Part shown: positions 19,094-61,775 of the stretch, one piece after another | Layout of the letters: the number at the start of each line of letters is the position of its first letter | Position numbering within the stretch: position 1 is the stretch's first letter | NCBI RefSeq assembly: GCF_008933165.1 | Contig: NZ_WBVQ01000003.1 | Location: 1-64,000, forward strand | From: Phaeocystidibacter marisrubri | Lineage (GTDB): Bacteria; Bacteroidota; Bacteroidia; Flavobacteriales; Schleiferiaceae | Reading direction: 5' to 3' | Length of the DNA: 64,000 nt | Translations under genes and position numbers: made by a program | The notes under the pieces: model-generated | What the model saw: only the letters and a program-made list of their open reading frames with translations | Database searches by the model: none | What the model was told of the DNA's origin: nothing

Positions 19094-19114
19094 TAAGTGT
19101 ACTTTTTACACTTA
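19094..19114. promoter_or_regulatory. palindromic operator A (susC promoter)
   Basis: Perfect palindrome with 8-base arms TAAGTGTA (19094-19101) and TACACTTA (19107-19114) around a 5-base centre. It ends 13 bases upstream of the susC -7 element, covering the -33 region. The same 8-5-8 layout recurs at 23356, 38831, 38920 and 60794. The Nudix-type regulator at 22527-23264 is the proposed binder. Confidence 0.7.
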
Positions 19115-22526: not shown

Positions 22527-23264
22527 TCAAAATTTCACGGTCACAAAGCTGCCGTGAACAGGAGATTTACTCCGAACTTCGAGGTTGAGTTTATACAGGC
22601 GAGCCGGTTTGTGTACCACGCCTGTTTGTTTTTCATCGAGTGCCGTGACGAGTTTCTCTTTGAGTACTTTCTTGCGGAAGTTTCGCTTGTCGAGTTCGCG
22701 GTCCTCAATCGCTTCATAGAGTGATTGAAGTTGGCTCAACGTGAATTTTTCTGGAAGCAATTCGAATCCCACTTGGCGATTTTCAAACTCTTCACGCAAA
22801 CGGTCTAATGCTCGTTGCATGATGCTGTTGTGGTCGAACGCCAATTCTGGAATTTCATGAATGTCTTGCCAGAAAACCCTTTCGGCAAAGCTGGAAGCTT
22901 CCGTTTGGAATTCGTCCATCTTGACAAGGGCATAGTAACCAATCGTGATTACTCGGGCTTCCGGTTGATCGCGATAACTCTTCAACCAATCCAAATCCTG
23001 AACTTGCTTCACGCGATTAGGATCGCCAAAGGCGTGAAACTGACGGAGGAAAATCCCTTCAATTCCCGTTAGTTCTTTTAGAACGCGTGCTGCCGCATCG
23101 TCTAAACTCTCGTCGTTCAACACGAGGTCGCCAGGTAGCGCCTGATGTCCAGACATGCCTTCAACAGCCTTTTGTTCAATCAATAACACTTTTAGTGATT
23201 GAGTGTCAAAGCCGAAAACGACGCAGTCGACAGAAACATTGGGATTTATCACTCTATTTTTCAT
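22527..23264 (-). CDS. Nudix-domain transcriptional regulator (NrtR-like)
   Basis: A 245-residue protein: an N-terminal Nudix fold (about 5-150) and a C-terminal winged-helix-like region (about 160-235, FTLSQLQSLYEAIEDRELDKRNFRKKVL). The Nudix box at 45-68 is degenerate: where catalysis needs REUxEE the sequence is ARVLKE, so pyrophosphohydrolase activity is unlikely. That combination is the hallmark of NrtR/AraR-type repressors, in which the Nudix domain senses a metabolite. The gene is divergent from pfkA, with palindrome B between them, and heads a unit with the exported amylase. No other regulator lies in the sugar region, so it is the best candidate for the maltodextrin regulon. Its ligand is unknown. 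Confidence 0.85.
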   Translation of the reverse strand: MKNRVINPNVSVDCVVFGFDTQSLKVLLIEQKAVEGMSGHQALPGDLVLNDESLDDAAARVLKELTGIEGIFLRQFHAFGDPNRVKQVQDLDWLKSYRDQPEARVITIGYYALVKMDEFQTEASSFAERVFWQDIHEIPELAFDHNSIMQRALDRLREEFENRQVGFELLPEKFTLSQLQSLYEAIEDRELDKRNFRKKVLKEKLVTALDEKQTGVVHKPARLYKLNLEVRSKSPVHGSFVTVKF

Positions 23265-23355: not shown

Positions 23356-23376
23356 TAAGTGTCAATTTTACACTAA
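23356..23376. promoter_or_regulatory. palindromic operator B (pfkA / Nudix regulator)
   Basis: Arms TAAGTGTC (23356-23363) and TACACTAA (23369-23376), five bases apart; two positions differ from operator A. Its right arm overlaps the pfkA -7 element TAAGTTTG at 23374-23381, so a bound protein would block polymerase. It also lies 92 bases before the Nudix start, allowing autoregulation. Confidence 0.65.
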
Positions 23377-23404: not shown

Positions 23405-24388
23405 ATGTCGAAAGCCATCAAGACTTTAGCTGTATTGACTTCTGGAGGGGATGCTCCGGGTATGAATGCTGCCATTCGCGCCGTGGTTAGAACTGCCGTT
23501 TTTTATGAGAAACGCATTTTTGGCATCAAGCGTGGGTACGACGGTTTAATTGAAGGAGATTTTGAAGAATTGAACTCAAAATCGGTGAAAAATATCTTGA
23601 ACTTAGGGGGGACAATTCTGAAGTCGGCCCGAAGTGAAGAATTTAAAACCGAGGCTGGACAGATGAAAGCTTACGAGCAACTTCAAAAGCACGGGGTTGA
23701 TGGTTTGATTGTCATTGGAGGGAATGGCACCTTTACAGGGGCGCATCGCTTTTTCGAGGCCCACGGTGTTCCAGTAATTGGCATTCCTGGAACCATCGAC
23801 AATGACTTATTTGGGACAGATTACACCATAGGGTACGACACAGCAACTAACACAGTGGTAGATTGCATCGATAAAATCCGCGATACAGCGTCTTCGCACA
23901 ATCGCCTCTTCTTTGTGGAGGTGATGGGGCGTGATTCCGGTTTCATCGCCATGAATACGGCTGTTGCCATTGGGGCGCTAGATGTGATTTTACCCGAACA
24001 GAATAAGTCGTACGAAGACTTATTTGTGGAAATAGAAAAGGGGGCAAGCAACAAGAAAACATCCAACATTGTGGTGGTTGCAGAAGGGAACAAGCTGGGT
24101 GACAGTTTTTCTATTGCCAATAAAGTGCGAGAGCACTTCCCTCAACTCGATACAAAAGTGACCATCCTCGGACACCTACAACGCGGCGGAGCACCTAGTT
24201 GCTTTGACCGTGTCACCGCTAGTAAATTGGGCGTTGCAGCAGTTGAAGGCCTGCTCAACGGACGATTTGATGTAATGGCGGGTATGGTAGACGAAGAACT
24301 CACCTATACATTCCTGCAACAAGCAGTGATGAATAAGGCTCAGCTCGATCCAGAAATGTTACGAATCTCTAAAATCCTCGCTATCTGA
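23405..24388 (+). CDS. pfkA: 6-phosphofructokinase
   Basis: A 327-residue PfkA that phosphorylates fructose-6-phosphate to fructose-1,6-bisphosphate in glycolysis. Seen: [17 protein letters not shown] (13-29), the ATP-site loop [10 protein letters not shown] (104-113), the catalytic GTIDND (129-134), and [12 protein letters not shown]. Gly at the position after Asn107 indicates ATP rather than pyrophosphate as donor. Asn107 stands where E. coli PfkA has the Mg-binding Asp103. This is the first gene of an operon that continues with gap (TGATG overlap). Placement in a sugar-specific operon suggests it is induced with maltodextrin use; another pfkA may exist elsewhere. Confidence 0.95.
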
Positions 24389-25380
24389 TGAGAAAGATTG
24401 CAATCAATGGGTTCGGTCGTATTGGACGACTGACTTTCCGAAACCTTTTAGAAAAAGGTGGACTTGAAGTAGTGGCTATCAATGATCTTACCGATACCAA
24501 GACCTTGGCTCACCTGCTCAAGTACGACACGGCTCACGGCAAATTTGACGGAACCATCAGTCATTCGGAAGACAGCTTAATTGTGAATGGCAAAACCATT
24601 CGCGTTTACGCTGAGCGTGATCCTGAAGCTCTTCCATGGGGAGAATTAGGAATCGATGTAGTTCTCGAATCTACCGGTATTTTCCGCGATGCTGAGAAAA
24701 TGTCGAAGCACCTCAAAGCTGGAGCAAAGCGAGTTGCGCTAAGTGCACCGGCAAGTGGTAAGCTCCTAACCATCGTGAAAGGAGTGAACGACGAACAACT
24801 CACTTCAGAAGAAACGCTGTTCTCTAACGCAAGCTGCACCACCAATTGTTTAGCTCCAATGGCCAAAGTTTTGGATGAGAAGTTTGGCATTGTGAAGGGG
24901 TTCATGACCACTATTCACGCCTACACCGCCGACCAGAATTTGCAAGATGGTCCTCACAAGGATCTTCGCAGAGCGCGTGCGGCAGCTCAAAGTATGATTC
25001 CAACTTCAACGGGTGCCGCCGTAGCGGTGGGATTGGTCCTTCCAAAGTTGGATGGAAAATTGGATGGATACGCCATGCGCGTTCCTACCATTACAGGTTC
25101 TGCCACAGACTTAACTGTGGAGTTGGAGAAAGCGGTTACCGCAGAAGAAATCAATGCAGCTATGAAAGAGGCTGCAGAAGGAGAGCTCAAAGGAGTTCTC
25201 GAATATACCGATGAGCCGATTGTGTCTACCGACATTATTGGTAATAAGCATTCTTGCATCTTTGACAGTGACATTACTTCGGTAAATGGGAACATGGTTA
25301 AGGTACTGGGATGGTACGATAACGAAGCCGGATACTCAGCTCGAATGGCCGATATGGTTGAGAGAGCTGCTAATTTGTAA
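24388..25380 (+). CDS. gap: glyceraldehyde-3-phosphate dehydrogenase
   Basis: A 330-residue phosphorylating GAPDH. The Rossmann motif NGFGRIGR is at 7-14. Asp33 in INDLTD marks NAD preference. The catalytic [12 protein letters not shown] places the nucleophile at Cys150, and the C-terminal [16 protein letters not shown] is intact. The start codon overlaps the pfkA stop. Together with pfkA and mgsA it adds part of lower glycolysis to the maltodextrin operon; it is either the main GAPDH or an inducible second copy, which this window cannot settle. Confidence 0.96.
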
Positions 25381-38830: not shown

Positions 38831-38851
38831 TAAGTGTCCAAATTACACGAA
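38831..38851. promoter_or_regulatory. palindromic operator C (neopullulanase promoter)
   Basis: Arms TAAGTGTC (38831-38838) and TACACGAA (38844-38851) with a 5-base centre. The weakest of the five sites. On the minus strand it overlaps a near -7 sequence (TAATTTG), so binding would mask the promoter of the gene starting at 38816. Confidence 0.5.
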
Positions 38852-38919: not shown

Positions 38920-38940
38920 TAATTGTAAAAAGTACACTTA
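38920..38940. promoter_or_regulatory. palindromic operator D (T9SS carbohydrate-binding protein promoter)
   Basis: Arms TAATTGTA (38920-38927) and TACACTTA (38933-38940), one mismatch to operator A. It sits 14 bases before the ATG at 38954. Together with operator C it places both sides of this divergent promoter under the same control. Confidence 0.6.
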
Positions 38941-38953
38941 CAACAGAATAGCT

Positions 38954-40342
38954 ATGAAGAAACTTTACGCATTGGCATTGTTGGTTGGCGGTTCACTCGG
39001 AGCAGGTGCTCAGACTTACGCTGTTAACTTTGCCGTAGATCTTAACGCAGCAAATCCCAATCAGGATACTGTGATTGCTGCAGGTAACTTTGCATCAGCT
39101 GATGCATCGGGCCTTTACACGGATTGGAATGACGCTTCGTCTAATCCAGATAGTGCTGTTTATATGGCGGATCCAGATATGGACGGCATTTGGACATTCA
39201 CTGCAAACCTTCCAGATGGTAATTACGAATACAAGTTCCTCAACGGTGTTGGCGGATGGGAGTCTGGTTTTTCAGGAAACCGTACGTTCACGGTAAGTGG
39301 TGCTGCGGTTCAATTGGATACTTTTTGTTATGACAACCCGAATCCAGGTATTTGTCCTACAACAACTCCTGCTATTTTGGATGTAACTATCCAAATTGAC
39401 ATGAGCAATGTATGTTCATTCGATCCTGCAACTGACATTGTTGATTTTGCAGGCGAACCAAATGCATGGGCTGGTGATACATTGGACGATTCAGATGGTG
39501 ACTTGATTTACACGATTACGTACACAGATTTGAACGTGCAAGTAGATAACGCTACAGGATTGGCTTCATTCCAAGGCAAGTGTCGTATCAATAGCAACTG
39601 GGGAACCTCAGAAGGTGGTTCCAACCGTGTGATTGAGTTCGGTACAGATACCGTACTTCCGGTTCGTTGTTACAATTCTATTGCCTATGGTACTTGTGTG
39701 CCGAATCCACCAGCGGCTGATATCACTTTTGAAGTGGACATGAACAACGAAGTTCCTGCTGGTGACGGTAAGATCTTTATCGCAGGTGATTTCACCAACT
39801 GGCAAACCAATGCATTGGAAATGTTAGACAACGACGGTGACGGAGTTTACTCTGTAACGGTTCCTAATTTCTGTCCAGCTGATGTTCAGTGGAAGTTTAT
39901 CAACGGTACTCCTGACGCACAAGGTGGTAGCGGTGCCGTGGAAGAGTCGGCTGACTTCTCTTCAATCGGTGGTTGTGGTGTGGACAACGGTTCATTCTCT
40001 GATAACCGTTACTTCGCGCGTCCAACCGACGGAAACAATAGCATTGTTCGTTACGAATTCAATACTTGTAATGGTATTGATGGGGGCATCAGCGTAGATG
40101 AGTTCTCTAAAGAAAACATCTTCCTTACTCCAAATCCAATGACAGAACGCGCAGTAGTTGCTCTTCCAGAAGGAGTTTACAATGCACGTGTATTGGATCT
40201 TGCTGGTCGCACATTGCGTACATACAACGGAGCTTCTCAAGAGCTCGTTATCGATCGCGCTGAATTGAACGGAGGCGTATACATGCTTGTTCTCACTAAT
40301 GAGTCTGGCGAAGTGAACACAACGAAATTTGTGATTCAGTAA
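38954..40342 (+). CDS. T9SS-secreted protein with tandem carbohydrate-binding-like modules
   Basis: A 462-residue extracellular protein: signal peptide (1-20), about three E-set/AMPK-type modules (AAGNFASADASGLYTDWND, then DFAGEPNAWAGDTLDDSDGD, then IFIAGDFTNWQTNALEMLD), and a T9SS type A signal in the last 75 residues (ENIFLTPNPMTERAVVALPE, ARVLDLAGRTLRTYNG). Asp-rich loops such as DPDMDGIW and DNDGDGVY look Ca-binding. No catalytic domain. The role is probably surface starch binding, the job done by SusE/SusF in Bacteroides; the shared palindrome upstream supports membership in the same regulon. Confidence 0.85.
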   Translation: MKKLYALALLVGGSLGAGAQTYAVNFAVDLNAANPNQDTVIAAGNFASADASGLYTDWNDASSNPDSAVYMADPDMDGIWTFTANLPDGNYEYKFLNGVGGWESGFSGNRTFTVSGAAVQLDTFCYDNPNPGICPTTTPAILDVTIQIDMSNVCSFDPATDIVDFAGEPNAWAGDTLDDSDGDLIYTITYTDLNVQVDNATGLASFQGKCRINSNWGTSEGGSNRVIEFGTDTVLPVRCYNSIAYGTCVPNPPAADITFEVDMNNEVPAGDGKIFIAGDFTNWQTNALEMLDNDGDGVYSVTVPNFCPADVQWKFINGTPDAQGGSGAVEESADFSSIGGCGVDNGSFSDNRYFARPTDGNNSIVRYEFNTCNGIDGGISVDEFSKENIFLTPNPMTERAVVALPEGVYNARVLDLAGRTLRTYNGASQELVIDRAELNGGVYMLVLTNESGEVNTTKFVIQ

Positions 40343-52933: not shown

Positions 52934-54376
52934 ATGACATGGGACTCTCTTTTGGTACTGGGCTATTATCTCTTCGTCACAACGGTTGCCATTGGGATTT
53001 TGATGGAGAACCGAAACCCGATGAAGACAATGGGTTTCATTATGGTGCTGTATCTCATTCCGATAGGAGGATTGATTATTTACTTTCTATTCGGACAGAA
53101 CCATCGCAAGCGAAAGCTCTTTTCGAGAAAGGGCATCCGAGACAATGAACACATTCGAACGTGGGAACTTGAGAATATCTCGCAGGTCAAGTCGGCCGAA
53201 GAGGTGACCAAGCATTTTCTACAAGACAAATGGAAGGTGGTGAATTCACTTTTTAACAGTGATAGAGCTGTTTTGACAACCCAAAACACATGGAGGTTAC
53301 TGCGTAATGGCGAAGAGACTTTTGGGGCACTACTGGAAGCTATTGAACAGGCTGAACATCACATTCACATTGAGTATTACATTGTAGAAGACGATGGGGT
53401 TGGACGTCAATTTCGCGATGCTCTGATCGAAAAGGCCAAGTCTGGTGTAGAGGTTCGTTTCATCTACGACGATGTGGGAAGTATGAGTCTCAAACGACGG
53501 TTTTTGCGCCCCATGCGTGAAGCGGGAATTGAAGTGAAGCCCTTTATGCCTGTACTTTTTCCACTGCTCACCTCAAGAGCAAATTACCGCGATCACCGAA
53601 AGGTGGTGATAGTGGATGGTAAAGTGGGGTTTACTGGGGGAGTGAATTTGTCTTCTCGTTACACCAATGTGAAATCGGAGGGACGCTATTGGCGTGATAC
53701 CCATCTTCGATTGGAAGGAGATGCAGTGAAATCACTACAAATGCACTTTTTGCTGATGTGGCGTTTTGTGAATGAAAGTGCGCCACAGGTTTCTCCTGAT
53801 TACTTCCCAGATATTGAGGTGGATGAAATTACTCTCGTTCAAGTTGCCGCTTCTGGACCCGATTCGGATTGGGCCAATATTCTCTCGGCGATATTCACGG
53901 CCATCAATACGGCCCAGAGGGAAATCCTCATTACTACGCCGTATTTTATTCCCAATGATGAAATACTCTTTGCCTTGCAAACTGCTGCATTAAGTGGTAT
54001 TCAAGTAAAAATCATCCTTCCAAAGAAATCGGATTCACGTCTGGTTCAAGCGGCAATGATGAGTTATGTGAAGGAAATGCTCGAAGCAGGTGTGAAGGTA
54101 TATCTGTATGAGAAGGGATTCATCCACGCCAAAACGATGGTTGTTGATGAAAGTTTGTGCACGGTGGGCACATCGAACATGGACTATCGCTCGTTCGATA
54201 TCAACTTTGAGATCAACGCTTTTGTGTACGATAACGAAATGGCCAAAGCGCTCAAATCAGACTTCAAGAAAGACCTGGAGTCGTGTTCAGAAATCACTTT
54301 GGAACGTTGGGATAAAAGGGTCTTGCGAAGACGGGTTAGCGAGAGTTTTGCTCGCTTGGTAGCTCCCCTGCTTTAG
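52934..54376 (+). CDS. cls: cardiolipin synthase
   Basis: A 480-residue inner-membrane phospholipase-D-family enzyme from the ATG at 52934; an upstream open frame to 52832 adds 34 residues before the first membrane helix and overlaps the divergent gene. Two N-terminal helices (LLVLGYYLFVTTVAIGIL, TMGFIMVLYLIPIGGLIIYFLFG) precede two HKD motifs, HRKVVIVDGKVGFTGG and HAKTMVVDESLCTVGTSNMD, with both His, Lys and Asp kept. It makes cardiolipin from phosphatidylglycerol or a CDP-lipid. It overlaps the convergent patatin gene by four bases. Confidence 0.95.
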   Translation: MTWDSLLVLGYYLFVTTVAIGILMENRNPMKTMGFIMVLYLIPIGGLIIYFLFGQNHRKRKLFSRKGIRDNEHIRTWELENISQVKSAEEVTKHFLQDKWKVVNSLFNSDRAVLTTQNTWRLLRNGEETFGALLEAIEQAEHHIHIEYYIVEDDGVGRQFRDALIEKAKSGVEVRFIYDDVGSMSLKRRFLRPMREAGIEVKPFMPVLFPLLTSRANYRDHRKVVIVDGKVGFTGGVNLSSRYTNVKSEGRYWRDTHLRLEGDAVKSLQMHFLLMWRFVNESAPQVSPDYFPDIEVDEITLVQVAASGPDSDWANILSAIFTAINTAQREILITTPYFIPNDEILFALQTAALSGIQVKIILPKKSDSRLVQAAMMSYVKEMLEAGVKVYLYEKGFIHAKTMVVDESLCTVGTSNMDYRSFDINFEINAFVYDNEMAKALKSDFKKDLESCSEITLERWDKRVLRRRVSESFARLVAPLL

Positions 54377-56589
54377 AACCAATATCCTATGTTCAGATAC
54401 GCCATCATTCCAGAAGATTCAAAAGATTTGTGAAGGATAGCTGAGATAGGGCCAATGAAGGTGTTGATGCCATATTCAAACTTAAAACCCGTAAGCAACA
54501 ACGATGATTGCTTGTCAAACGGTGTATAGATGTCGTCAATAATTGCCGCTCCATTTATTCCTCCTAGAACAAAGTTGTTTTTGAAAATCTCGTACTGTAG
54601 CTCGAATCCTACCATAGCCGAGTTTAGCCCATATACGGGATCAAACGTAGAGGTGGCGTAGCCAAAATTACCATAGGCAAAGGAGTAGCCGTAAAGAGGT
54701 ACATTGTTGTTGATGTAATTTTTACCAACGCCTCCATAGTTGACGATGTAAGGAGGTGTGATTTCAGACGAACCTATATTAACCAAACCGTACAAATTGG
54801 ATCGAAAGGTCCAGTCTTTTGAAAGGGGAATGTTGCTCTCAAAGTTGATGTCTGTAGAAAACGGAAGTCCACCGTATAGCTCATTCAAGGAACCGATGAA
54901 CATGACGTTCAACTCCATCAATATCCCTTTGGTTGCATAGGTGTTCCGATTTCGAATATCAATTTCAGAGTTGAGGAAGAGCTCCACGTTTTCAGATCGG
55001 AGTCGCACTTCACCAAAAATTGATTGAATAAAGGCACCATCACTGTATTGGGAAGTGTTGTGATACGCTACGCCGAGTTTGATGGCGGTAGATTTGGCGA
55101 TAGAAGAGGTGAGAAAGAGTCGCGCTCGGATATCTTCGGTGCGCATTTCGCCAAAATTTACGCCTCCATAGTGGAAGTCACTCTGATAATTCCAATACCT
55201 GAAGTCACCCCCTAGTCCGGGTAGTACACCATTGTCTTTCATCACCACGATGTTGGCGCGTGGATTGGCACTAATGCCAAGATCGAGTGACATGTAGGAA
55301 CCGGTGAAAATTTCGTTTCTACTGGTTAGGTTGAGCAGGGCGGCGCTTTCAAAATCACTGTCATATCTGATACCTACACGAGCTTTTACTCCGGAGGGTT
55401 TCTCTAATACTCGAACTTCTAGTACCGTTTTCCCATTGAAGGGATAGGTGAGGTAATTGGCCAAGCTGAATTGATTGGTTCCATGGATTTTGAGCATGCC
55501 TTGTTCGATATCGTCAAAGGATACCGTATCACCTTCGCTGAACCCGAGGTTACCAATCACATTTCTTCTCGAGGCGTTAGCCAAGCCCTTTACTCGAATT
55601 TCATCAATTCGAATTCTATTGGGGGGGAGCCTTCTGCGAACAGTCCTTGGCTGTGGTCCGCCCAACAGCTCACGAATGCGAAGCAACTCGTCCATATTGG
55701 CTCTTGCAACCCTTCGTCCGGATTCTATGATTTCAGCGGCTTTATCGAAGGTGGTGACCCCGAAATCATTCATGTCAGGGTTTAGGATAAGATCGCACAG
55801 TGACTCCCGCTCTTTGGTGGTGAAAGCGTTCATGTACATCCCGGTCTTCTCTAAAACCTTTAAGAAGGTAGGATCGGCAATGGAGTCTTTGAAAGTGGTT
55901 TGAACATCCACGCCAATGAGGATGTCAACCCCTAATTCTCTCAGGTGATCTGCGGGGAAGTTGTTGACGGTTCCTCCATCAATTAAGTAGGTATCGTCAT
56001 AATAGAACGGACTAAAGAGAGAGGGAATACTCATGCTTGAGCGCAAGCACAGAGGAAGTATGCCCTCGTACATCACCTTTTCCCGTCCGGTGTTGAGTTC
56101 CGTAGCTACGCAGACAAAGGGAATAGGGAGGTCTTTGCGGAAGTCCAGCGGGTCGTGGTATCCAATGGTTTCCCTAGAGAGAATGTTGAGGATTCGTTCA
56201 CCAGGGTTTAAACCGCCTGGTATTTGTAGACCTTCTTCAGTGACGTCCAAAGTGAGAACATAGCGTTCGTCTGAATTCTTTTCGTAAGGAGCGAGGTACT
56301 TTCTCTCTGGCCTAGGGTTGGTCACGAAGTCCCATTCTGTGGTCGTGGCGATTTGCGATAGATCTTCTGGCGTATGGCCAATGGCGTACAATCCGCCAAT
56401 GATCGAGCCCATACTGGTTCCGCCAATAGCGTCAACGGGGATGCCTAAAGAATCTAGCACTTCAAGAACGCCAATGTGTGCAAAGCCCTTGGCCCCTCCA
56501 CCCGACAGTACAATGCCTATTTTGGGACGATCTTGAGCAAATGTGCAAATTGAAAATAGCAGAGAGAAGATGAGACATGCCCTTTTCAT
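54373..56589 (-). CDS. patatin-like phospholipase with POTRA and outer membrane barrel (type Vd-like) 2
   Basis: A 738-residue protein: signal (1-19); patatin domain about 22-215 with oxyanion GGGAKG, nucleophile motif GTSMG (57-61, Ser59) and catalytic Asp in LIDGGTVNNFP; one POTRA-like domain near 325-400 (IRIDEIRVKGLANASRRNVIGNLGFSEGDTV); and a 16-strand Omp85/TpsB-type barrel ending MAYLNIGYWF. This order is that of PlpD, the type Vd autotransporter, so the lipase part may be exposed or released outside. It follows the second such gene by 45 bases, third in the uvrC unit. Confidence 0.9.
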   Translation of the reverse strand: MKRACLIFSLLFSICTFAQDRPKIGIVLSGGGAKGFAHIGVLEVLDSLGIPVDAIGGTSMGSIIGGLYAIGHTPEDLSQIATTTEWDFVTNPRPERKYLAPYEKNSDERYVLTLDVTEEGLQIPGGLNPGERILNILSRETIGYHDPLDFRKDLPIPFVCVATELNTGREKVMYEGILPLCLRSSMSIPSLFSPFYYDDTYLIDGGTVNNFPADHLRELGVDILIGVDVQTTFKDSIADPTFLKVLEKTGMYMNAFTTKERESLCDLILNPDMNDFGVTTFDKAAEIIESGRRVARANMDELLRIRELLGGPQPRTVRRRLPPNRIRIDEIRVKGLANASRRNVIGNLGFSEGDTVSFDDIEQGMLKIHGTNQFSLANYLTYPFNGKTVLEVRVLEKPSGVKARVGIRYDSDFESAALLNLTSRNEIFTGSYMSLDLGISANPRANIVVMKDNGVLPGLGGDFRYWNYQSDFHYGGVNFGEMRTEDIRARLFLTSSIAKSTAIKLGVAYHNTSQYSDGAFIQSIFGEVRLRSENVELFLNSEIDIRNRNTYATKGILMELNVMFIGSLNELYGGLPFSTDINFESNIPLSKDWTFRSNLYGLVNIGSSEITPPYIVNYGGVGKNYINNNVPLYGYSFAYGNFGYATSTFDPVYGLNSAMVGFELQYEIFKNNFVLGGINGAAIIDDIYTPFDKQSSLLLTGFKFEYGINTFIGPISAILHKSFESSGMMAYLNIGYWF

Positions 56590-56634
56590 GCGGAGTGATT
56601 TTGAAGCTGAAAGATACTACTTCAAAAAGGGAAT

Positions 56635-58794
56635 TTAGAACCAAAACCCCAAACGCACGTAGGTGTCTATTCTAGAGTGGTTGGACGATTTGGAAAGCGT
56701 GATTTCTAATGGGCCGAGTGGACTCTTGTAGCCGTAGGAAATGCCATAACCGTCCAAGATTACACTACTGTTGAAGAGCTCGTCCACGGTCGCTTCCAAT
56801 GTTCCCACGTTGGCAATGGCCGTAAAGAAGTGATTCGGGAATGCTTCATACCAAACATCTGCACGGAAGGTGAGGGCATTTCTACCGAATAGTTCCATGT
56901 ATCGGTAACCCACAAATGGAAAAATGTGTTGGGTGTAATTTTCCCCCATACTTCCCAAAAAGATGGAATAGGGATAGGGAGCATTAGGTCCAATGGTGGT
57001 GGCTCCCAAAATTCGAGTTCTAGCCCCAACACGGTCACTGAAGCAGAAAGCTTGATCGTATTGTATGTGAAGAATGGAGATGGGTTCGGCGTATGTTTTG
57101 AAATCGATCTGTTCCGAAATCAATTTGAATTCTCCATTGAGTTGAAATCCAGAGGTAGGCTTATACGTGCGGTCGAAGGAATCGAAATCGATAAACCCAA
57201 AGTAGTTGAGATATGTCGTATTTGACTCTTGAATTTCCGAACGCAAAATGGGTTCACTGATATCAATATTCTCAAAGCGAACACCGCCGCCGATCGTGTA
57301 GAGATCCCAAAGTGTAGAGTGGAGGAAGATTTCGGTTCCAAAATCGGTGTAGGTGTATTCAGAAATGGGACTTCCGTTTTCGTACACGTTGGCATTGAAT
57401 TGATGGAAGTCGGATTTGAATCCAAAGGCTGGAATAAACCCGCGCTCAAAGATGTAGCTCAATTCGCCTCTCGGATTTTCACTCAAGACAAAATCAAGTG
57501 AAAATTTGGAGTTCTTCACTAAGGCATTTCTCACGGTTACATTGAGAAGTACCCCCATTTTATAGTCATCGTCGTAGTGAATGCCCAAACGCGCTTGGGT
57601 ATTGTCTTCAGATTCGACCACAAAAATGTGCATCTCTTTCTCCCCGTTTCGTGTTTTATGGATTCGGTAATCTACTTGCTTATAAAACCGACTGCCATAT
57701 AAGCGCTCGATTCCGGCAATGATATCCTCAGAATCAGTGGTGTCTTTTGGGGCTATTCCTAAGGTAGAACGCACAAAACGATCAGAAGTGAGCGTGGCTC
57801 CGTGAACGATAATCGTATCGACGTATAATTGTCGAGAGGGATAGGGAGCTGTTCTTTCAGGAAGGGGTTCAGAGGCGGCCCACTGCGAGAGCTCTTCGCT
57901 GTGCTCTAAGGTGGCCTCGGCCCCTCTGCGAATGATTTCATCGCGAAACTCGTAGCTCACAATGCTAAACTCATCCAATTCGGGATGGATGACCACCGTT
58001 GCGTCCTTCAGTTGCTCGCGGTAGTTCTCCATATTGGGATAACTGCCCACCTGTTCCAAAATGCTCACCATATTCGTGAGTTGGTCGCGAGTGTACAATC
58101 CAGATTGCGCATCAGATGCAATGATTATATCCATTCCCTTTTCGCGAAGTAAACTGATGGGAAGATTGTTTTTGATACCGCCGTCTACGTGTAATTCGCC
58201 TTCTAATTCAAAAGGAGAAAAGATGGAAGGAAATGCGGAGCTAGCTCGAAGTACATGGGCTAGATCGCCCGAATCAAACACCACTTCTTCACCTGTTTCT
58301 AGATTGGTGGTGATGCAGCTGAAAGGGATATTGAATTTGGCAAAGTTGGTGCTGTCGTGTACTTCTTGAAGCAAATATGACAGGGTGGTAAGTACGTATT
58401 GCCCAGAGTTTACAGCGTCTGGAATTTTAATTCCCGAGGAATCGATCGCCAGGGTTAGCGTATATCGATCGTCAGAGCTTCTGTCTAAGTAAGACAATCG
58501 GTAACGAGGAATGTTGTTGTTGAGGAGGGCATCCCAATCTACCTCGTTCAGTAGACCTTCGATGTCGTCTGCAGAAAACCCCATGCAGTACATGGCTCCA
58601 ATAATGGCGCCCATGGAGGTTCCAGTCACATAATCCGGACGAATGTTTTGGTTTTCCAATTCCCGAATTACGCCGATGTGCATCATGGACTTGGCTCCTC
58701 CACCGCTCAAGGCGAGTCCGACTTTTGGACGCTCTTGCGCATGGGAAAGCGTGCTGAAAAGTAATGTGAATAAGAGTAGTTTGGCTTTATTCAT
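56635..58794 (-). CDS. patatin-like phospholipase with POTRA and outer membrane barrel (type Vd-like) 1
   Basis: A 719-residue protein from the ATG at 58792-58794 (MNKAKLLLFTLLFSTLSHAQ); a longer frame to 58839 would precede the signal peptide and run deep into uvrC. Patatin domain: GLALSGGGAKSMMHIG, GTSMG at 58-62 with Ser60, and Asp in LHVDGGIKNNLP. POTRA-like region about 330-410 (YVDTIIVHGATLTSDRFVRSTLG) and a barrel ending TYVRLGFWF. The start overlaps the uvrC stop by eight bases, so it is translated with uvrC. It is a paralogue of the gene that follows. Confidence 0.9.
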   Translation of the reverse strand: MNKAKLLLFTLLFSTLSHAQERPKVGLALSGGGAKSMMHIGVIRELENQNIRPDYVTGTSMGAIIGAMYCMGFSADDIEGLLNEVDWDALLNNNIPRYRLSYLDRSSDDRYTLTLAIDSSGIKIPDAVNSGQYVLTTLSYLLQEVHDSTNFAKFNIPFSCITTNLETGEEVVFDSGDLAHVLRASSAFPSIFSPFELEGELHVDGGIKNNLPISLLREKGMDIIIASDAQSGLYTRDQLTNMVSILEQVGSYPNMENYREQLKDATVVIHPELDEFSIVSYEFRDEIIRRGAEATLEHSEELSQWAASEPLPERTAPYPSRQLYVDTIIVHGATLTSDRFVRSTLGIAPKDTTDSEDIIAGIERLYGSRFYKQVDYRIHKTRNGEKEMHIFVVESEDNTQARLGIHYDDDYKMGVLLNVTVRNALVKNSKFSLDFVLSENPRGELSYIFERGFIPAFGFKSDFHQFNANVYENGSPISEYTYTDFGTEIFLHSTLWDLYTIGGGVRFENIDISEPILRSEIQESNTTYLNYFGFIDFDSFDRTYKPTSGFQLNGEFKLISEQIDFKTYAEPISILHIQYDQAFCFSDRVGARTRILGATTIGPNAPYPYSIFLGSMGENYTQHIFPFVGYRYMELFGRNALTFRADVWYEAFPNHFFTAIANVGTLEATVDELFNSSVILDGYGISYGYKSPLGPLEITLSKSSNHSRIDTYVRLGFWF

Positions 58795-60592
58795 CTGCAT
58801 GAAAATACGACCAAATCTTTTGAGCCTTGCTACTTCCAACGAGGTTTTCTAGCTCACCTTTGGCTGCTTTGCTAACGCCCGTTGCGCTCTTGTATTTTTT
58901 CAATAGGATTTTTACCGTAGAGGGGCCTATGCCTGGTATTTCTTCTAGTTTGCTTTTAACGGCAGACTTGCTCCTTTTTTGTCGGTGGAAAGTGATGCCA
59001 AAACGGTGTGCTTCATTTCTCGCCTGTTGAATAATTTTCAGTGTTTCTGAACGCTTGTCAAGGTACATGGGAACAGGATCGCCCGGGAAGTAAATCTCTT
59101 CCAAGCGCTTGGCGATGCCAATAATGGCAATCTTTCCACGCAATCCGAGTAATTCAAGACTTTTTAATGCAGCGCCCAATTGCCCTTTGCCTCCATCAAT
59201 CACGATGAGTTGAGGTAGGTCTCCACCTTCTTGTTGAATCCGACTATAACGACGGTAAATGACTTCTTCCATGGAGGCGAAATCATCCGGACCTTCTACC
59301 GTTTTAATGTTGAACTTTCTATAGTCGTTTTTGGATGGTTTTCCATCTTTAAAAACCACACAAGCTGCAACAGGGTGTGTGCCTTGGATATTTGAGTTGT
59401 CAAAACACTCCAAATGCCGAGGTTCCACATTCATGCGCAAATCTGTTTTCATTTGCTGCATGATTCGATTGGTGTGACGATCGGGGTCTACAATCTGAAT
59501 GTTTTTCATTCGCTCAGATCGATGGTAACGGGCATTCCGTTGACTCATGTCCACCAGCTGTTTTTTATCTCCGCGCTGTGGAACGGTGATTTTTACATTG
59601 GGGATATCTATTTCTACTTCGTGAGAGAGGTATAGCGTTCTACTCTGACTATTGAAGAGGTTCCGCATTTCTGGGATACTCAATGCCAATAATTCTTCGT
59701 CTGATTCGTCGAGTTTCTTTTTCAACTCTACCGTGTGGGCCTGTACAATGGCTCCTTCAATGATTTTCAAATAGTTCACATAGCCGTATTCGGCGTCGGA
59801 AATGATGGAAAATACATCTACGTTAGTGATGGAAGGAGTGACCACCATGCTCTTAGCTTGGTATTTTTGGAGGAGGTCGATTTTTTCCTTAACCGCTTGA
59901 GCACTTTCAAATTCCATGTGTTCTGCATGGGTCTGCATCTGCGTTTTGAGCAGTTTGAGCACGGCAGAAATGTTTCCTCGAATGATCTCCCTCGCCGATT
60001 CTACATCGTTCATGTAGTCTTCTTCGCTTTGAAGATCTTCACAAGGGCCAAGGCAATTCTTGATGTGATATTCTAAGCAGACTTTGTATTTCCCATTGTC
60101 GATGTTCTCTTCACTCAAGTTGAGATTACAGGTGCGAAGGTGATAGAGTTGTCGAATCAGATCTAGTACCGTGCGCATGACGCGAACACTGGCATACGGT
60201 CCAAAGTATTCACTCCCGTCTTTAACGGGGTTGCGTGTAGAGAAAATGCGTGGGAATCGCTCCTTCTTAATGCAAATCCAAGGGTACGTTTTGTCGTCCT
60301 TTAAATTCACATTGTATTTCGGTTGGTGTTCCTTTATGAGGTTGTTCTCTAATAAGAGCGCATCAAATTCTGAATCAGTAATGATGGTTCGGATGTCGCG
60401 AACCTTTTTGACGAGTAAGTAGGTTCGCGCATTGTCGTGCTGTTTGGTGAAATAACTACTAACTCTTTTCTTCAGATTCTTGGCCTTGCCGATATACAGG
60501 ATCTTTCCATCCTTGTCTAAATGTTGGTACACACCAGGTTTTTCTGGAAGTGTTTTTAAAAGATTTTGGAGGTGTTCAGATTCAGCGGCCAT
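58787..60592 (-). CDS. uvrC: excinuclease ABC subunit C
   Basis: A 601-residue UvrC that makes the two incisions in nucleotide excision repair. The ATG at 60590-60592 (MAAESEHLQNLLKTLPEKPGVYQHL) is preferred over one 99 bases upstream that adds an unlikely Arg/Ser-rich leader. Order: GIY-YIG domain (GVYQHLDKDGKILYIGKAKNLKKRV, 16-40), UVR/UvrB-binding motif (HAEHMEFESAQAVKEKIDLL, about 200-220), the RNase-H-like 3' nuclease core (HLECFDNSNIQGTHPVAACVVF, LPQLIVIDGGKGQLGAA), and C-terminal helix-hairpin-helix (EEIPGIGPSTVKILLKKYKS). It heads a unit with two patatin genes. Confidence 0.96.
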   Translation of the reverse strand: MAAESEHLQNLLKTLPEKPGVYQHLDKDGKILYIGKAKNLKKRVSSYFTKQHDNARTYLLVKKVRDIRTIITDSEFDALLLENNLIKEHQPKYNVNLKDDKTYPWICIKKERFPRIFSTRNPVKDGSEYFGPYASVRVMRTVLDLIRQLYHLRTCNLNLSEENIDNGKYKVCLEYHIKNCLGPCEDLQSEEDYMNDVESAREIIRGNISAVLKLLKTQMQTHAEHMEFESAQAVKEKIDLLQKYQAKSMVVTPSITNVDVFSIISDAEYGYVNYLKIIEGAIVQAHTVELKKKLDESDEELLALSIPEMRNLFNSQSRTLYLSHEVEIDIPNVKITVPQRGDKKQLVDMSQRNARYHRSERMKNIQIVDPDRHTNRIMQQMKTDLRMNVEPRHLECFDNSNIQGTHPVAACVVFKDGKPSKNDYRKFNIKTVEGPDDFASMEEVIYRRYSRIQQEGGDLPQLIVIDGGKGQLGAALKSLELLGLRGKIAIIGIAKRLEEIYFPGDPVPMYLDKRSETLKIIQQARNEAHRFGITFHRQKRSKSAVKSKLEEIPGIGPSTVKILLKKYKSATGVSKAAKGELENLVGSSKAQKIWSYFHADE

Positions 60593-60693
60593 GGGATAAA
60601 GGTACAAATGAACCAGAAGTTCAGTGCATCGTGAGGAACGCTTTGCACCCGAATTTTGTTTGATACTACCCTTGGCAAATCCCCGTTTCAAGC

Positions 60694-60729
60694 AAAAAAA
60701 AAGAGAAAGCTATCTAAATAGCCTTCTCT
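60694..60729 (-). terminator. rho-independent terminator upstream of uvrC
   Basis: On the minus strand AGAGAAGGCTAT, a TTAG loop, and ATAGCTTTCTCT (60702-60729, one mismatch) are followed by eight T. It should stop transcripts coming from the phosphatase gene at 61017 before uvrC. Confidence 0.8.
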
Positions 60730-60793
60730 AACCCATGAGTCGAATCCGTGCGAATTCGTTGCTTAACCGTCTGCAAGTTAAGTAAAAAAGTTA

Positions 60794-60814
60794 TTAGTGT
60801 ATATAGTACACTAA
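60794..60814. promoter_or_regulatory. palindromic element E, same class as the sugar operators
   Basis: Perfect arms TTAGTGTA (60794-60801) and TACACTAA (60807-60814), five bases apart, matching the operator layout at susC and sharing the arm of operator B. A-run before and T-run after also make it readable as a weak bidirectional terminator. A -7 element TACGTTTG begins 12 bases to the right (60827-60834), close to the 13-base gap at susC. Confidence 0.45.
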
Positions 60815-60826
60815 CTATTTTTTTGA

Positions 60827-60834
60827 TACGTTTG
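60827..60834 (+). promoter_or_regulatory. -7 promoter element of putative small RNA
   Basis: TACGTTTG is an exact TAnnTTTG match on the plus strand; no protein gene follows on that strand, so any transcript would be non-coding. Confidence 0.4.
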
Positions 60835-60840
60835 TCTGGC

Positions 60841-60993
60841 GCGACCATTCAAGCGGTCAAGCGCGCGTTCCTGTGCAAGCGATATAGGGAGCTGACACTA
60901 ACAGAGCGAGTTGAATTCTGTCCTTGATTTTCTGAGCCTTTTCAAGACTGAGCCTTTCTTCACCGCAACCTGTATGTAGAGGCTCCTTTTTTT
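60841..60993 (+). ncRNA. candidate small RNA between uvrC and the PP2C gene
   Basis: A region of about 150 bases without an acceptable gene. It follows the -7 element, opens with a hairpin (GCGCGACC at 60839-60846 pairs with GGTC and GCGC at 60855-60864, AA bulge), and ends with GAGCCT (60950-60955) and AGGCTC (60980-60985) followed by C and seven T, a plausible terminator with a long loop. It does not match tRNA, tmRNA, RNase P or SRP RNA motifs that I know. A minus-strand open frame of about 45 codons runs through it without a start codon. Treat as a hypothesis. Confidence 0.3.
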
Positions 60994-61016
60994 GTGCCCA
61001 GAACCCGTACTATTGA

Positions 61017-61775
61017 TTACTCAACCTCCAACGCGATCAAGGAAAAGTTGTCTCGACTCTTCTCTTCGCATTTGACGCGTATTTCTTTAAAAGCACTCTT
61101 GAGTTCGCATTTCGAAAGCTGTTCGATGAGTTCAGATTCAGGACAGCCTTCCAATATTCCATCAGAAAGGAGTAGTAAAATGTCGCCAGATTCAATTTCC
61201 GTTAGTTCGGTGATGTCCGGTGTGGCAAAGCGGTTGCCATCGCTGATGGCTTGAAGAATTATGTTTTTTCTATTGCTCTTTCGAGCTTCTTCCTCGGTGA
61301 GGTGACCCTGATCCACCATTAATTGAACTAAACTGTGGTCTCTGGTTCTGTAGAGGACTTCACCTTTTCGAATGTGGTAAAGTCGACTGTCGCCTACCCA
61401 GTACACAAAGGCGCTGCTCTCTGAATTTGGATGGAACCCAACGACTGTAGAGGCCATTCCCTTGCATTCGGGATAAAGCTCCGAGTGAGCATTTAAACTC
61501 TGTTCGGCCGAACGAATCGCATCGCAAATGGTTTGAGGATTAACTTCACTGGCGTAGGAGAGATGCGTTCCTATGGAACGAGAAACGATATCCGAAGCGA
61601 CTTCACCGCGATTGCTCCCGCCAACACCATCACAAACCAAGAATGTGCGAGCGCCCTCCGCATCTACATGCTGCGGATAAACGTTGTCTTCGTTCAATTT
61701 CCTTTTGCCAGGGTGACTCAGGATGTAATGACGAGTGTTTAGACTATTATCGTTCAATTGAAGATTCGCTCTCAC
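61017..61775 (-). CDS. PP2C-family serine/threonine protein phosphatase
   Basis: A 252-residue protein phosphatase of the PPM/Stp1 type. The metal-binding motifs are SHPGKRKLNEDNVY (near 19-32), FLVCDGVGGSNRGEVAS with the core Asp, VYWVGDSRLYHIRKGEV, LLLSDGILEG, and a final Asn/Phe element SRDNFSLIALEVE. It lies 37 bases after the kinase gene on the same strand, the usual kinase-phosphatase pair, and would reverse its phosphorylations in the cytoplasm. Confidence 0.94.
   Translation of the reverse strand: MRANLQLNDNSLNTRHYILSHPGKRKLNEDNVYPQHVDAEGARTFLVCDGVGGSNRGEVASDIVSRSIGTHLSYASEVNPQTICDAIRSAEQSLNAHSELYPECKGMASTVVGFHPNSESSAFVYWVGDSRLYHIRKGEVLYRTRDHSLVQLMVDQGHLTEEEARKSNRKNIILQAISDGNRFATPDITELTEIESGDILLLLSDGILEGCPESELIEQLSKCELKSAFKEIRVKCEEKSRDNFSLIALEVE

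Follow-up and report, generated by a model that had tools for sequence, protein, structure and literature searches.

A candidate pair of divergent small RNA genes at an AraR-type operator in Phaeocystidibacter marisrubri

The stretch of DNA analysed here (the window, 64,000 nucleotides of Phaeocystidibacter marisrubri) represents contig 3 of a 3.35-Mb genome. Towards its end, a gap at 60593-61016 separates uvrC (58787-60592, minus strand; named by eye from its translation) from a PP2C phosphatase gene (61017-61775, minus strand). The order uvrC, gap, PP2C is the same in two relatives of the genus that carry the locus, G001 and G002, which together with the window genome, G000, form the comparison set. 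Within the gap lie a palindrome of the AraR/NrtR operator type (60794-60814, TTAGTGTA-N5-TACACTAA) and, on either side of it, two candidate small RNAs (sRNAs) whose promoter-like sequences have this palindrome in common. One, of about 155 nt, is on the plus strand (60839-60993), its start placed from a -7 box and its end from a T-run at 60987-60993, and the other, of about 74 nt with a nearly invariant body, is on the minus strand (60695-60768), its start likewise placed from a -7-like box. The region 54373-58839 contains two tandem patatin-like protein genes with a barrel-type C-terminal half, as judged by eye from the translations.

The palindrome, in full TTAGTGTATATAGTACACTAA with the spacer TATAG, has two perfect 8-bp arms, which confirms the original prediction of a fifth operator-like palindrome at 60794-60814. 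Its exact sequence occurs once in the 3.35-Mb genome, where an order-1 model gives about 0.0003 expected copies, and the window holds five sites with at most three mismatches against 0.14 expected, a number reached in 0 of 100 shuffles. The remaining sites are found before susC (19094-19114, minus strand), where the operator stands 13 bases from TACTTTTG in all three species; between a Nudix gene and a pfkA-gapA-maltose phosphorylase operon (23356-23376, without assigned strand; the operon names, unlike that of the Nudix gene, were given by eye from translations); directly before a cyclomaltodextrinase-like amylase gene (38831-38851, minus strand); and directly before a starch-binding (SusE-like) gene at 38954-40342 (38920-38940, plus strand). 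All five recur in G001 and G002 with at most three mismatches, the flanks having been examined for the susC, Nudix/pfkA, amylase and sRNA sites and the starch-binding site recognised by its spacing to the amylase site. Genome-wide, the motif at up to three mismatches shows no enrichment, with 12 sites in G000 against 38 for a reversed-pattern control, and it is likewise below this control in the relatives (14 against 34 in G001, 12 against 35 in G002). The shorter pattern WAGTGTA-N5-TACACTW, with one mismatch allowed, has no excess in G000 (9 against 12) and is in excess in several relatives, for example G003 (17 against 4). The case for a putative operator lies in the low-mismatch sites, their position and their conservation. 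Thirty operator-like loci of the family (one of them, L055, without motif letters) divide into 11 inside open frames and 19 in intergenic sequence; each of the 19 has a gene starting away from it within 150 bases, the sRNA site (L065) solely by way of uvrC, at 146 bases.

Several of these sites have neighbours worth recording in their own right. The maltodextrin operon begins with phosphofructokinase-like and GAPDH-like genes (23405-25380, identified by eye), which places dedicated glycolytic enzymes under the Nudix operator. Another gene whose product has GAPDH domains (L009, C1:778834) has a two-mismatch site upstream, beyond a terminator-like hairpin, and this site has no counterpart among the G001 and G002 sites whose flanks were examined. 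A three-mismatch operator separates another alpha-amylase gene from a divergently oriented short-chain fatty acid transporter gene (L017:1501-1521, G000:C2:640702), and in another genus of the family the palindrome TTAGTGTA-CCAAT-TACACTAA precedes a glutamate dehydrogenase-like gene (L004:1501-1536, G006:C13:17703).

Promoter-like elements flank the palindrome on both sides. The plus-strand -7 element (60827-60834) is TACGTTTG in G000 and G001 and TAGGTTTG in G002 and stands 12 bases from the operator in all three species, so that the resemblance first proposed to the 13-base spacing at susC is borne out and kept throughout the comparison set. Beside the other palindrome edge, the minus-strand -7-like element (60773-60780) reads TAACTTGC, TATCTTGC and TATCTTTG in G000, G001 and G002, at 13, 11 and 12 bases from the operator, respectively. 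The form TAnnTTTG is present in the plus promoter of three of three species and in the minus promoter of one of three, the other two having TAnnTTGC, with the starts in each case placed from the boxes themselves. In Flavobacterium psychrophilum a TAnnTTTG box is located at -12 to -5, and the variant TAnnTTGY at the same position marks another promoter class (PMC9723704). With the box at -12 to -5, transcription would be expected to start at 60839 on the plus strand and at 60768 on the minus strand, which would put the operator centre near -35/-36 on either side. The operator centre thus falls some 35-36 bases before the expected start in both promoters and at susC, over the place of the -33 element; by eye, the plus promoter has no TTG at -33. 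By chance, a TAnnTTTG would occur at one or other of three given positions with a probability of about 0.001, and the 12-13 base spacing is absent at the other operator sites examined.

The plus-strand candidate ends in a G+C stem followed by seven T, an end that a simple terminator scan misses because the hairpin is long. Separate structure predictions for the three species arrive at the same overall fold, with a 5' hairpin (60839-60864), a small hairpin and a long closing stem (60886-60893 with 60981-60988; GGAGC/GCUCC) before the T-run; RNAalifold pairs these bases partly in another way. Folding energies are unremarkable (z -0.26, -2.30 and -0.65), and one pair of the 5' helix is changed on both sides, although covariation among only three sequences does not exceed that of shuffles (159/500 for this helix, 151/500 for the minus-strand terminator described below). 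Of the roughly 150 bases of structured, non-coding sequence with a terminator-like end that had been predicted, the non-coding stretch of about 155 bases and the T-run end stand, and the term structured is weakly supported by these z-scores. No reading frame is conserved through the whole of the plus or the minus unit in the three species. An 86-codon plus-strand frame at 60994-61254 was considered as a gene behind the plus RNA and rejected, being antisense to the phosphatase gene and represented in G001 and G002 only by frames of 49 and 46 codons; as it is the only plus-strand frame behind the RNA, a role of the latter as leader of a downstream gene is not likely.

The minus-strand candidate, absent from the original prediction, is placed equally well. 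It carries a predicted hairpin (60758-60741) and ends in an intrinsic terminator (60694-60729) formed by a 12-pair stem (60729-60702) together with nine consecutive T. This stem is the only minus-strand terminator-like site that the scan finds in 60550-61100, a count no higher than shuffles can yield (mean 0.6), and it is fully paired across the three species, with one two-sided change. In each species the minus RNA is more stably folded than its shuffles (z -3.80, -3.67 and -2.39), a signal that comes from the terminator, the body alone having a z of -0.58. A small plus-strand frame (MSRIR...) inside the minus-RNA gene was discarded, its frame being shifted by a one-base indel in G001 and G002.

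Sequence conservation sets these elements off from their surroundings. Silent sites between the three genomes are near saturation, 19 of 157 four-fold sites being identical in all three in uvrC and 8 of 47 in PP2C. By the same three-way count, in blocks drawn after the alignment of the three sequences had been seen, invariant columns number 38/41 in the minus body, 24/39 in the minus terminator and 18/21 in the operator, and two plus-strand blocks reach 33/42 (60859-60900) and 44/51 (60913-60963). Less conserved are the plus 5' helix (17/35), the variable part of the plus RNA (10/23) and its terminator (11/34), as are the minus promoter stretch (10/23) and the operator-to-box spacer together with the box (12/20). 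The outer flanks of the gap have 12/110 and 0/23 invariant columns, the latter being the bases beside the PP2C stop. The operator, both candidate RNAs and their order are kept in both relatives, and the locus displays the sequence-level hallmarks of sRNA genes: a conserved non-coding unit, a promoter-like box and a terminator-like end.

This pattern bears on whether the minus strand of the plus block at 60913-60963 might instead encode a small basic peptide, (V/L)KKGSV(L/F)KRLRKS(R/K)T(E/D). The frame is open across the block in all three species (60898-60963, minus strand), with 12 of 16 residues identical. Five of its six four-fold sites are invariant, however, against 19 of 157 in uvrC, which points to bases being kept rather than residues, and the frame ends after 21 codons in the window and runs on in G001, with both ends unconserved, making a coding function highly improbable. 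It is also very unlikely that the palindrome is a mere, possibly bidirectional, terminator of the phosphatase gene amid non-functional spacer. In the window it is flanked by A6 and T7 runs and folds with -12.6 and -8.8 kcal/mol, and the plus T-run is present in G001 too; in G002, however, the arms are retained with no T-run beside the stem on either strand (GTAAAATTTTATTAGG; GATATATTTTTATATC). The arms, kept in both relatives, furthermore match the operators of four sugar-gene promoter regions in the window, and both flanking sequences are far more conserved than silent sites. The role as terminator of the phosphatase transcript, named at the outset as the alternative to an operator, is accordingly disfavoured.

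Two further explanations concern the minus stretch only and leave the plus RNA as the single independent transcript or the single target of the operator. The minus stretch could be a regulated 5' leader (attenuator) or a long 5' UTR of uvrC, which lies downstream on the same strand, starting some 100 bases beyond the terminator in the window and some 60 beyond it in G001. Attenuators usually take the shape of a terminator that precedes a gene, and the sRNA site is one that the operator survey counts as before uvrC. Against this, uvrC has a TAnnTTTG box of its own directly before its start, downstream of the minus terminator, in G001 (TATCTTTG) and G002 (TATATTTG), and in the window TACCTTTA, which matches five of the six specified bases, takes this place, again past the terminator. 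Such boxes suggest that uvrC has its own promoter, and the minimum-energy folds contain no conserved pairing that would open the terminator; the leader is unlikely on this evidence. At 60593-60606 and its homologues, the TAnnTTTG box lies only a few bases from the uvrC start codon in G001 and G002, a position that suggests a leaderless or nearly leaderless uvrC mRNA. Alternatively, the minus stretch could be the 3' UTR and terminator of the phosphatase gene, or an sRNA derived from that 3' UTR, with the operator serving the plus RNA only. PP2C, on the same strand, ends at 61017, and the stem at 60729-60702 is the sole terminator-like site found by the scan on this strand in 60550-61100. Yet the 41-base body is invariant at 38 positions as opposed to none of the 23 beside the PP2C stop, so its conservation is not that of a bare terminator, and a -7-like box is kept at the expected distance; we regard this explanation as quite unlikely.

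Both candidate RNAs appear to be confined to the genus. By BLAST, the plus side was matched in 4 of 60 genomes (the window genome, G001, G002 and G006, the G006 match being the palindrome alone), and its covariance model in 3 of 88 family genomes, all of the same genus; the RNA is single copy by BLAST. The minus RNA, also single copy, was matched by BLAST in 3 of 88 family genomes, the window genome included, and a search of 296 genomes of the order with its covariance model likewise recovered three. One of the models (R2) includes a three-pair stem with a two-base loop that is unable to form, of little consequence as its columns are invariant, and both covariance searches were run with stricter filters that lose weak matches. 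The covariance search in relatives that had been proposed as a check thus recovered both RNAs in G001 and G002 and neither of them outside the genus. The plus model also gave six weak matches (E 0.007-0.1) in other genera, which were rejected as chance, no operator with at most four mismatches being present in their 3-kb loci on the strand searched. Among the GTDB contigs, a 20-base piece of the minus RNA is matched exactly in two records, both of them the relatives. Rfam 15 gave no match at gathering score in the window, nor at the operator locus in any of the three genomes, and five matches at relaxed E-values were dismissed as far below gathering scores (best E 2.9). The 6S-Flavo family (RF01685) has no match in the interval. 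Elsewhere, a sub-cut-off 6S-Flavo match at G000:C1:1403654-1403795 (L131; 37.4 bits against a cut-off of 85), with a similar one in G002 (39.7 bits), is perhaps a divergent 6S RNA of the genus.

The presumed binder of the operator is the Nudix regulator encoded at 22527-23264 (minus strand), which has NUDIX, NrtR_WHD and AraR_C domain matches and resembles BtAraR (BT0354) of Bacteroides thetaiotaomicron with an E-value of 2e-42. The promoter fragments used with BtAraR contain AGTGTATTTGATACACC, AGTGTTACTTTTACACC and AAAGTGTAAAAAAGACACTTA (PMC4666351; piece limits set in this analysis), and the window operator has the same GTGT/ACAC half-sites and spacing as the BtAraR regulon. In BtAraR, the DNA contacts that define GTGT are Lys179, Arg180, Asn181 and Lys184, all in the recognition helix, plus Lys204 and Arg205 in the wing (PMC4666351); the window protein keeps K179, R180, N181 and K184 in its helix, DKRNFRKK, and does not keep the wing contacts 204/205. 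The likeness extends to the combination of Nudix and winged-helix domains, the recognition-helix residues and sus-type target genes (PMC4666351). In contrast, as read from the alignment, Arg34 of the BtAraR arabinose pocket aligns with a glutamine in the window protein and, together with the differences at wing positions 204/205, this makes a ligand other than arabinose likely. The genome also encodes a paralogue at C1:1590418, behind a three-mismatch operator, which matches BtAraR with an E-value of 4.6e-44 and has the helix DKRNFRRK. NrtR-type regulators number two in G000 and three each in G001 and G002 (regulators L135, L136 and L139 were left out of the helix reading), so the identity of the binder is uncertain, and either Nudix paralogue could bind the operator. 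The second NrtR/AraR-type Nudix gene of G000 (L014:1501-2223, G000:C1:1590394) starts 3 bases behind its operator and adjoins a thioredoxin reductase-like gene; an operator-like site likewise marks the start of its G001 homologue (L067).

In BtAraR, the sugar lowers the affinity for DNA and the operon is upregulated (PMC4666351), which makes repression the natural expectation for the window regulator; this agrees with operators lying 3 to 14 bases from the start codons of the amylase, starch-binding and second Nudix genes. By analogy with BtAraR, we infer both a sugar response and Nudix binding at 60794-60814. On the strength of motif identity, a spacing kept in three of three species and conservation, the gap probably contains a divergent pair of sRNA genes that a single AraR-type operator would place under common control with susC and the maltodextrin genes; the earlier suggestion of a sugar-responsive sRNA controlled with the maltodextrin genes would thus hold as to the co-controlled unit and was incomplete in lacking the second, divergent RNA on the same operator. 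Under the mechanism we propose for this divergent pair, in which transcription, repression, ligand and base-pairing role are all inferred, the non-coding RNA genes of about 155 nt (plus) and 74 nt (minus) in the uvrC-PP2C gap would share the central operator, and the apo form of the Nudix regulator would bind it and block both promoters. A maltodextrin-derived ligand would release the regulator, whereupon both RNAs would be made alongside SusC/SusD, the amylases and the products of the pfkA-gapA-maltose phosphorylase operon, and would base-pair with mRNAs through their invariant single-stranded segments. A broader proposal, for which our confidence stops a little short of even, is that one sugar-repressor operator drives two sRNAs in opposite directions, as a two-RNA module of an AraR-type regulon that ties the release of transport and glycolysis genes from repression to a pair of post-transcriptional regulators, each RNA being a new, genus-confined family.

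Searches for targets of such RNAs yielded leads only, none of them convincing. The complement of the minus seed, TAACCCATGA, has 17 sites in the three genomes, 3 of which are the locus itself; 3 of the other 14 (L083, L086 and L093) lie where a frame of 60 codons or more starts, each in a different gene. That of the plus seed, AAAGGCTCRG, has 44 sites in the three genomes, and among the 30 examined in context 6 belong to the locus; at L109, L114 and L129 an ATG follows after 11-27 bases, within longer frames or overlapping them, and no such site recurs. A duplex scan paired three RNA segments with 34 genes between 13156 and 63963, of which 17 have orthologues in both relatives and the other 17 just in G001, using 60 single-base shuffles each and taking the window uvrC start at 60691 instead of 60592. 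Its best duplex, with 102 tests uncorrected, is that of the plus apical loop with gapA (z -3.86), a contact of which 9 bp (AAGGCTCAG) fall within the coding sequence of pfkA, and the 5' part of the plus RNA forms duplexes with the gene at 56635-58839 (z -3.34) and with susD (z -3.01), under the same lack of correction. For each of the three segments susC is outside the top five of the 34 genes. Pairing of the plus with the minus RNA is no better than that of shuffles in the window and G001, and better by 0.6 sd in G002. A 3' UTR of a secreted protein gene in G001 (L099:1501-1525, G001:C25:93465) is complementary to about 20 bases of the minus RNA, with two G-U pairs; in the other two genomes the 19-letter complement, with R/Y allowing for G-U, is matched at 0-2 mismatches nowhere but at the locus.

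Carbon-linked sRNAs are known to exist in the phylum, as GibS and FopS demonstrate (PMC7366714, PMC11697453). GibS of Bacteroides thetaiotaomicron, of about 145 nt, acts through a seed at the start-codon regions of its targets and is highest with N-acetylglucosamine, and FopS represses translation of SusC-type transporters (PMC7366714, PMC11697453). The candidates recall GibS, an intergenic sRNA linked to the carbon source whose conserved 5' seed is for the most part single-stranded. They differ from GibS and FopS in being single copy by BLAST instead of a 14-member family and in forming a divergent pair with a sugar operator of its own, and neither candidate has an Rfam match.

Enterobacterial Spot 42 and SgrS are single sugar-responsive sRNA genes, with CRP and SgrR as their regulators. 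The candidates would be like them in being sRNA genes under a carbon regulator, the RNA arm of a sugar regulon, and differ from them in their type of regulator and in their divergent arrangement as a pair. The NrtR/AraR regulons of Bacteroidota are described through protein genes in the literature examined, and the available text of PMC4666351 names no sRNA in the BtAraR regulon. A literature search of partial coverage gave, among the matches listed, no sRNA in an NrtR/AraR regulon, no two sRNAs on one operator and, for publications naming the genus, none on its transcriptome or sRNAs.

If the divergent-pair reading is true, the new features would be the presence of an sRNA in an NrtR/AraR regulon and the control of two such RNAs by a single operator, the best-formed one. 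The locus would then offer a simple test case, with two RNAs, one operator and one regulator family for which a DNA complex has been solved, and starch use in marine Flavobacteriales would gain a post-transcriptional arm. The arrangement suggests that sugar sensing in this marine bacterium may have an RNA arm too.
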